Assembly: GCA_014874475.1 (NCBI GenBank)
Contig: JADBJJ010000017.1
Span: forward strand, 62,001-126,000
Length of the DNA: 64,000 bases
Origin: Chloroflexota bacterium
GTDB taxonomy: Bacteria > Chloroflexota > Anaerolineae > B4-G1 > DUEL01
Reading direction: 5' to 3'
Position numbers and translations under genes: made by a program. Of this stretch, positions 32,508-35,259 are shown one piece after another. Position 1 is the first letter of the stretch. Every line of letters starts with the position of its first letter. The notes under the pieces are model-generated. The model made no database searches. It worked only from the letters and a program-made list of their open reading frames with translations, and was not told where the DNA came from.

Positions 32508-32966
32508 ATGCGAAGGGCGTCTGTGTTGACTCTCGTGCTGCTGCTCCTGACGCTGATGGCCCAGGCAGCCTCGGCAGCACCGGCCCGGTGGGCCATCCTG
32601 GGATACCACTTGGTTAAGCCAGGGGAAACCCTCTTCTGCATCGGCCGAGCGTACGGGGTAGACCCATGGGCCATTGCCGCTCAGAACAGTCTCATAAATC
32701 CCAGCCGCATCTACGCGGGGATGAACCTGGCTATACCGGACGCGTACCGGACTCTGCCCTCCGGCCCACGCTGTGTCCCCCAGTTCGGTCCTCCCACTCC
32801 ACCGGTCTGTACCTGCGCAACGTACTACACTATTCAGACTGGGGATAACCTCACCCGCATCGGCATCCGGTTCGGGGTGAGTCCATGGCGTATCGCCGAG
32901 TGCAACGGCATCTACAATCTGAACTACATTCGTGCTGGCGACACGCTATGCATCCCCAACCCATAA
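32508..32966 (+). CDS. Secreted protein with two LysM domains
   Basis: 152 residues. The signal peptide (about 1-28, Leu-rich, cleavage after ASA) is followed by two LysM repeats: YHLVKPGETLFCIGRAYGVDPWAIA (about 33-77) and YYTIQTGDNLTRIGIRFGVSPWRIA (about 105-150), each with two Cys that may form disulfides. No catalytic domain. It probably binds cell-wall glycan. AAAGGAGG lies 8 bases before ATG and an intrinsic terminator follows. Confidence 0.88.
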   Translation: MRRASVLTLVLLLLTLMAQAASAAPARWAILGYHLVKPGETLFCIGRAYGVDPWAIAAQNSLINPSRIYAGMNLAIPDAYRTLPSGPRCVPQFGPPTPPVCTCATYYTIQTGDNLTRIGIRFGVSPWRIAECNGIYNLNYIRAGDTLCIPNP

Positions 32967-32991: not shown

Positions 32992-33023
32992 GCCCGGCCC
33001 GGTCAAAGAGCCGGGCTTTTGTT
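32992..33023 (+). terminator. Rho-independent terminator
   Basis: GCCCGGC / GCCGGGC stem followed by TTTTGTTTG, right after the LysM gene. Confidence 0.72.
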
Positions 33024-33376: not shown

Positions 33377-33404
33377 TTGACTTTCCCCCACGACGTGATA
33401 AAAT
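33377..33404 (+). promoter_or_regulatory. Sigma-70-type promoter for rpsA leader
   Basis: TTGACT (33377-33382), 16-base spacer, TAAAAT (33399-33404). The predicted transcript starts at about 33411, some 200 bases before rpsA. Confidence 0.65.
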
Positions 33405-33418
33405 ATCTATACGATTCT

Positions 33419-33593
33419 GGATACCTGTCCGCAGAGCGCGCTGGATAGACCGTTCCTATTGCCAGTTTCGCAAAGATAGGAGGGCAAGAGAAGGCACGGG
33501 GCTCCGCGATGCTGGGTATGATCCATTTCCCCGGCATCGACCGCGCCGCAGTAAGAGCGTTGGCGAGGCCGGGTTTTTTTGTGGACAGGTATC
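33419..33593 (+). ncRNA. Structured leader RNA or attenuator upstream of rpsA
   Basis: Perfect 11-base arms GATACCTGTCC (33420-33430) and GGACAGGTATC (33583-33593) close the element. Inside, CCTAT (33455-33459) can pair with ATAGG (33476-33480) and TGCC (33460-33463) with GGCA (33483-33486), a pseudoknot arrangement. A terminator-like stem (CCCGGC / GCCGGG, 33530-33573) with seven T follows, just before the second arm and the ribosome site. No known riboswitch class was recognised. The design suggests control of rpsA or a separate 170-base RNA. Confidence 0.5.
33530..33580 (+). terminator. Intrinsic terminator within the rpsA leader
   Basis: CCCGGC / GCCGGG outer stem with an inner CGCC/GGCG stem, then TTTTTTT (33574-33580). 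It lies 33 bases before the rpsA ATG and is an attenuator candidate. Confidence 0.6.
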
Positions 33594-33612
33594 GGGCTGG
33601 AGGAGAGGAATT

Positions 33613-34884
33613 ATGGTATTGGAGTTCACCGCATCATCAGCCCAGCCGGAGACGGCTGTGGATATGGAAAGTCTGCTCCAGGAACAGGAGGGGTATATTG
33701 CTCGCCCCGGAGAAATCCGCAAGGGACGGGTCATCCAGGTCACCGAAGATGGTGCTCTGGTGGACGTGGGGCTCAAGCGGGAGGGGTTTGTTCCTGCCAG
33801 CGACCTGCGCCAGGTACGCAAAGAGATGGGGGAAATTCAAGAAGGCGACGAAGTATTCGTTAAACTCCTGGAGAGCGAGAGCGATGGTTATATCAAGGCC
33901 TCCATCTATCAGGCCCGCCTGGAGGAGGATTGGATTCGGGCCGAAGAAATGATGAAGAGCGGCGCCCTCTATGAAGGGCGGATCTCCTCGTACAACCGGG
34001 GTGGGTTGACGGTTCCATTTGGTCGCCTCCGGGGCTTTATCCCGGTCTCCCAGGTTGTGGGTATCCCGCGCGGCCTGAAGGAAGCGGAGCGACGCCAGCG
34101 ACTGGCCGAGATGGTCGGCCAGACCGTTGGCTTGCGAGTGGTGGACGTCAACAGGGAGGAGAAGCGGCTCATTCTCTCCCAGCGGCGTGCCCACCGGGCA
34201 TGGCAGCGCATTCTGCGCAAGCGCCTACTGGATAGCCTGGAGGTCGGACAGCGCCGTTGGGGGAAAGTCTCCAGCATCACCAACTTCGGCGTGTTTGTGG
34301 ACCTGGGGGGCGTGGAGGGAATGGTCCACGTCTCCGAACTCTCCTGGCAGCGGGTGGAGGCCCCCCATCAGGTTGTACGGGTGGGGGATAAGGTGGAGGT
34401 CGTCGTTCTGGAAGTGAACCGGTCCAAAGAGCGCATTGGCCTCAGCATCAAGCAGACCCAGGAAGACCCCTGGACCCGGGCAGGAGAGAAATACCGCGAG
34501 AATCAGTTGGTGGAAGGGCGGGTGACCCGTGTCGCCGATATCGGCGCTTTCGTGGAACTGGAGCCTGGAGTAGAGGGGCTGCTGCATGCCAGCGAACTGA
34601 TCGGCGCTCCGGATGTGACGCCCCAGCAGGTGCTGAAGCCGGGCGAGACCATCCTGCTAAAGGTTCTGGAGGTCAACCCCTCCCGCCGCCGCATCCGCCT
34701 GAGCGCCCGACGGGTCCGTCGGGATGAGTGGGAACGCTGGGCCGCCGAAAAGGCCGCCCGCGAGCGCACAGCGGAACCGGTCCCCGAAACAAAGGTGGTC
34801 GTTTCCGAAGCCGAAGCAGCGGCTCCCGATGAGCCCGCCGCCGTCCCCGAGGCGGAGCCAGTGGCCCTGGCTAACGAGGCGTGA
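33613..34884 (+). CDS. rpsA: 30S ribosomal protein S1 (four S1 domains)
   Basis: 423 residues: four S1 RNA-binding domains (about 33-100, 118-186, 205-275 and 290-360), seen from repeats such as GRVIQVTEDGALVDVGLKREGFVP, GKVSSITNFGVFVDLGGVEGMVHVSEL and GRVTRVADIGAFVELEPGVEGLLH. An acidic, Ala/Pro-rich tail ends the protein. S1 binds mRNA at the ribosome; four-domain forms occur in Gram-positive-like lineages. GGAGGAGAGG precedes the ATG. An unusual structured leader lies upstream; infA follows after a bidirectional terminator. Confidence 0.93.
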   Translation: MVLEFTASSAQPETAVDMESLLQEQEGYIARPGEIRKGRVIQVTEDGALVDVGLKREGFVPASDLRQVRKEMGEIQEGDEVFVKLLESESDGYIKASIYQARLEEDWIRAEEMMKSGALYEGRISSYNRGGLTVPFGRLRGFIPVSQVVGIPRGLKEAERRQRLAEMVGQTVGLRVVDVNREEKRLILSQRRAHRAWQRILRKRLLDSLEVGQRRWGKVSSITNFGVFVDLGGVEGMVHVSELSWQRVEAPHQVVRVGDKVEVVVLEVNRSKERIGLSIKQTQEDPWTRAGEKYRENQLVEGRVTRVADIGAFVELEPGVEGLLHASELIGAPDVTPQQVLKPGETILLKVLEVNPSRRRIRLSARRVRRDEWERWAAEKAARERTAEPVPETKVVVSEAEAAAPDEPAAVPEAEPVALANEA

Positions 34885-34935: not shown

Positions 34936-34976
34936 TTTCATTGCGGCGGCTTCGCCGCCGCAGTGAAATTTTTTTA
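34936..34976. terminator. Strong, possibly bidirectional terminator
   Basis: Stem TTTCATTGCGGCGGC / GCCGCCGCAGTGAAA with TTTTTTT after it and an A-run before it, so it works in both directions. Confidence 0.8.
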
Positions 34977-35010: not shown

Positions 35011-35259
35011 ATGGCCAAACGAGAAGATAAAGTAGAAATAGAAGGCACGGTAGTGGAAACTTTGCCCGGCACCCAGTTCCGGGTGAAGTTAGATACCGGC
35101 CATGAAGTCCTGGCCTATCTCTCCGGCCGGATGCGCAAATACTATATCCGCATTCTCTTGGGCGATCGGGTGCGGGTGGAACTCTCCCCATACGACCTGA
35201 CCCGGGGACGGATCGTCTACCGGTACAAACGACCGGAGGAAGCCGATTTGGGAGAATAA
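35011..35259 (+). CDS. infA: Translation initiation factor IF-1
   Basis: 82 residues of the OB-fold initiation factor that sits in the ribosomal A site. [41 protein letters not shown] and [22 protein letters not shown] are family signatures. ATG 35011 is chosen on the family start; the frame opens earlier at 34963 through the terminator. AAAGGG lies upstream. It is separated from the usual ribosomal-protein cluster, which is common outside Firmicutes. Confidence 0.95.

Follow-up and report, generated by a model that had tools for sequence, protein, structure and literature searches.

A terminator-containing leader upstream of rpsA, probably a regulatory RNA, in a family of uncultured Anaerolineae

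The gene for ribosomal protein S1 (rpsA) in the Chloroflexota contig JADBJJ010000017.1 is preceded by a leader that probably acts as a regulatory RNA, of a kind not described before, to set the amount of S1 in these Chloroflexota. All coordinates refer to the window, the 64,000-nt stretch of this contig that was analysed, and the features described lie on its forward strand. Read 5' to 3', the region 33377-33612 contains a promoter, the 5' arm of a closing helix (P1), an intrinsic terminator, the 3' arm of P1 and a Shine-Dalgarno sequence, after which the S1 gene begins. We compared this leader with those of the same GTDB family (f1, 13 genomes) and of two sister families (f2 and f3, the latter in the same order); those relatives that are named in GenBank are metagenome-assembled genomes (MAGs) of uncultured Anaerolineae or Thermoflexales.

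The rpsA gene (33613-34884) encodes a protein of 423 amino acids with four S1 domains (four stretches matching PF00575), and its best NCBIfam matches are to 30S ribosomal protein S1, all of them below the curated cut-off. Two further paralogs with S1 domains (L025, L037) are present in the same genome as additional candidates for the ribosomal S1. As the first-pass annotation had indicated, a ribosome site precedes the gene: a canonical Shine-Dalgarno sequence, GGAGGAG (33599-33605), is located 7 nt before the ATG at 33613 and is left unpaired by P1. The distance from the end of the P1 region to the start codon is about 20-24 nt in most relatives. A strong GC-rich hairpin followed by seven T (34936-34975) separates rpsA from infA (35011-35259), which suggests that the rpsA transcript is monocistronic. 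On the upstream side, a gene for a LysM-domain protein (32508-32966) has a terminator-like hairpin of its own at 32996-33017, and the leader is therefore not the tail of that gene.

The promoter, TTGACT-16-TAAAAT with a TG before the -10 box (an extended -10), spans 33377-33404 with 10 of 12 matches, and transcription is predicted to start at about 33411. Every relative with the leader has a corresponding motif, TTTGAC..TGATAnAAT, in this position, apart from G025 with its different promoter, and the promoter proposed in the first-pass annotation is retained. By folding energy the leader stands out only a little (z = -2.3 over 202 nt, and z = +0.2 when the 3' arm of P1 is left out), and the case for a structured leader thus rests on conservation.

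The helix with the strongest covariation is P1, an exact 11-bp helix between GATACCTGTCC (33420-33430) and GGACAGGTATC (33583-33593), the latter located 3' of the terminator. Among the relatives, both partners vary in 9 of its 11 pairs. In an alignment of 17 leaders built with a covariance model, 92% of the cells in P1 and the terminator pair and 15 of the 26 pairs change on both sides; none of 500 shuffles reached any of the measures, and controls in which the helices were slid gave at most 6 double-change pairs. An independent structure prediction on this alignment returned the same helices. Because the structure guided this alignment, which misplaces the P1 5' arm in two sequences (L040 and L045), we also ran tests on fixed windows that require no alignment. 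The cognate pairing of the 5' and 3' windows across 15 genomes gave -31.9, as compared to -25.6 for permuted partners; the cognate value was reached by none of 5000 permutations overall and by 1 of 5000 within f1 alone and within f2 alone. The closing stem drawn in the first-pass annotation is hence both exact in the window and covarying, and the conserved pairing in relatives for which that annotation had called, naming its absence as grounds for rejection, was found in P1 as well as in the terminator.

The intrinsic terminator (33530-33580), also noted at first pass, consists of a hairpin with the arms CCCGGCATCG...GCCGGG (33530-33573, -24.5 kcal/mol) and a run of seven T (33574-33580). Its pairing likewise covaries in the fixed windows, with none of 5000 permutations reaching the observed value overall. 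The U-tracts were poor or the strict terminator test failed in four relatives (G008, G009, G011 and G031). The order of elements that defines an attenuator, a promoter followed by an intrinsic terminator before the start codon, is present, and the predicted terminated RNA is about 170 nt long. Because the 3' arm of P1 is located downstream of the terminator, P1 can be completed only in read-through RNA.

A hairpin that is absent from the first-pass annotation competes for the 5' arm of the terminator: the segment CGATGCTGGG (33507-33516) is complementary to 33530-33539 and folds with it into a 10-bp putative antiterminator. In 9 of 11 f1 genomes, these two arms pair better than roughly 99% of shuffled controls. 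Of the antiterminator cells in the alignment, 92% are paired and covariation is not significant, as the antiterminator hardly varies; in the diverged G010, such a hairpin is kept with a quite different sequence. Up to the U-run, the two alternative forms in the window have energies of -57.7 and -57.1, a difference of 0.6 kcal/mol. The predicted co-transcriptional occupancies place the terminator arm entirely (1.0) in upstream pairing until the 3' arm emerges, and give 0.52/0.48 for the two forms at the end of the U-run. A nearly isoenergetic hairpin that takes up the 5' arm of the terminator corresponds to the anatomy of an attenuator in f1. No local antiterminator was significant in the shuffle test for most f2 genomes, so the switch in f2 must differ or use another pairing; folding and sequence conservation together point to an antiterminator and bistability in f1 only.

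Between the 5' arm of P1 and the antiterminator lies the hairpin region P3 (33450-33499; CCGT..TTCC..TTGCC / GGCAA..AGG..ACGG), as delineated by folding 19 relatives locally; its 3' side carries a GGAGG motif. Apart from the truncated G005, every f1 member has GAGG in P3 (as GGAGG in G011), as do 6 of the 7 f2 members. The pseudoknot considered at first pass, CCTAT/ATAGG combined with TTGCC/GGCAA, fits the window sequence but not the sister species, which instead form a nested hairpin with inner pairs that change together (TTGCC/GGCAA, CCTC/GAGG, and GCC/GGC inside TTCCC/GGGAA); we have abandoned it. A junction helix, P2, is tentatively suggested by covariation in f1 (13 of 5000 permutations) and not in f2. 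We also considered attenuation by a leader peptide. The ATG at 33509 in the antiterminator arm is missing from G010 and G011 and opens no conserved peptide, and neither a start codon nor a peptide is conserved after the GAGG motif, which argues against this form of control.

Searches at the DNA level identified the leader in each of the 6 remaining genomes of the genus; 5 have it complete, and G005 has a terminator fragment. The same layout was found upstream of the S1 ortholog in 13 of 13 f1 genomes, with G005 lacking the 5' part; at that locus (L014), the 5' half of the leader is lost, the terminator is kept and the spacer before the start codon is longer. A diverged form precedes most S1 orthologs in f2. 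For a broader survey, a covariance model was built from 12 f1 members. Among 396 genomes of the class Anaerolineae, matches were confined to f1 and f2, with one per genome, and none was located away from rpsA; in the retrieved loci the model recovers five f2 leaders (E < 0.007). The leader is always directly before the S1 ortholog, and neither it nor any terminator was present in the 15 regions upstream of S1 paralogs that we read. The f3 genomes have a short stem and then a Shine-Dalgarno sequence before S1 with no terminator, indicating that the attenuator is dispensable.

We found no credible match to the leader in Rfam 15 at gathering or relaxed thresholds, which bears out the first-pass annotation, in which no known class was recognised, and searches of an open-licence library of papers returned no rpsA attenuator. 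The S1 self-control described in gamma-proteobacteria requires a weak Shine-Dalgarno sequence. The control is translational: free S1 competes with the 30S subunit for a translation initiation region (TIR) that has no canonical Shine-Dalgarno sequence, and introducing one abolishes the competition (PMC10931766). The Chloroflexota leader resembles this region in the identity of the gene, the structured leader and the presumed self-limitation, whereas it differs in having an internal intrinsic terminator and a canonical Shine-Dalgarno sequence, and because of the latter the setting for the E. coli S1 mechanism is lacking. In its anatomy it is similar to the L10(L12)4 leader of Bacillus rplJ, a ribosomal-protein leader in which a terminator and a competing fold mediate transcription attenuation (PMC10931766), although gene, protein and RNA are different and the S1 leader has no Rfam match. 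In the rpsL and rimP leaders, too, translation genes are preceded by terminators that vary from lineage to lineage, and the rpsL leaders may contain antiterminators (PMC2965389); the genes are again different, and rpsA is not mentioned in the main text of that study.

The first-pass annotation had left the choice between an attenuator, a translation-control RNA and a small RNA. Of these, the attenuator is best supported, by the promoter, the terminator, the competing hairpin in f1 and the placement before S1 only; a strong Shine-Dalgarno sequence outside P1 speaks against purely translational control. Sequence comparison shows the promoter, P1, the terminator and the S1-specific placement. We favour, with somewhat better than even confidence, an attenuator of transcription that acts in cis within the rpsA mRNA and for which the likeliest trigger is free S1. 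RNA polymerase would start near 33411. Folding would begin with the 5' arm of P1 and with P3 and proceed to the antiterminator (33507-33516/33530-33539), which would hold the 5' arm of the terminator. Once the 3' arm emerged, the two forms would be almost equal in energy, and a factor acting at P3 or the antiterminator region could thus decide between stop and read-through. Polymerase would either stop at about 33580, releasing the 170-nt RNA, or read on, in which case P1 would close the whole leader and expose the strong Shine-Dalgarno sequence just downstream. S1 that is free rather than bound to the 30S subunit would bind the leader and cause termination, and S1 would in this way limit its own synthesis. 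S1 as the ligand is the most likely choice by analogy, from the identity of the gene and the behaviour of other ribosomal-protein leaders, and the sign of control is likewise inferred.

An attenuator with another trigger, such as the translation machinery (e.g. a 30S subunit on the GAGG of P3), a metabolite or another protein, is clearly less probable and still deserves consideration: the GAGG/GGAGG kept in P3 of almost all f1 and f2 leaders resembles a decoy Shine-Dalgarno sequence, and nothing in the leader RNA identifies S1 as the ligand, yet S1 is invariably the downstream gene, and ribosomal-protein leaders as a rule serve self-control (PMC10931766). We consider it rather unlikely that the terminator is constitutive and partial, giving a fixed low read-through, with P1 protecting the mRNA end and presenting the Shine-Dalgarno sequence. 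Such a role would fit a P1-like stem and Shine-Dalgarno sequence being the only part common to f3, and the non-significant antiterminator in most of f2; it is opposed by the near-isoenergetic competing hairpin in f1 and its retention in G010. That termination serves to make a small RNA of about 170 nt acting in trans is improbable, even with a promoter and terminator of its own and a short predicted product, since the best-covarying helix, P1, pairs across the terminator and no copy was found apart from rpsA in the 396 genomes. Chance hairpins in GC-rich DNA, for which the whole-leader z-score could be cited, are contradicted by the covariation, and a terminator of the upstream gene by the intervening promoter and the LysM gene's own terminator-like site; we regard either as very improbable. 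If the favoured attenuator is correct, the leader defines a new family of RNAs upstream of a core translation gene, its terminator and canonical Shine-Dalgarno sequence constitute a different solution for S1, and S1 regulation outside the Proteobacteria becomes directly testable.

In many other Anaerolineae, too, S1 is preceded by a promoter, a leader and a terminator, the last often with the arms ACTCGGC...GCCGAGT. Of 64 other members of the class, 33 have a terminator in the 300 nt preceding S1; the reverse strand gave 17 of 64, and shuffled sequences gave 23%. Outside the class the numbers were 8 of 26 on the forward and 18 of 26 on the reverse strand, with a high scanner background, and because these counts are below the reverse-strand background any phylum-wide claim is only a lead. 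It is accordingly a speculative suggestion that S1 is controlled throughout the Chloroflexota by transcription attenuation through fast-evolving leaders specific to each lineage that sense S1 or S1-loaded 30S subunits, a transcriptional autoregulation unlike the translational one of E. coli. Several Chloroflexia-type genomes have a promoter and a hairpin with a T-run before S1, and in four of these loci (L186, L191, L187 and L185, from G450, G422, G413 and G477) a common leader, CATTGTAAAACATAG...TGACATCCGCC.CGG, is located between the two. This is possibly a second S1 leader family; a search for it yielded matches in three genomes of one genus only. Finally, the S1 leaders L237 and L238 from two close relatives in another family of the class (G079 and G111) contain a short ORF with a Shine-Dalgarno sequence before the terminator, and the encoded MRTHGRHLR* and MCICGRHSR* are possible leader peptides.
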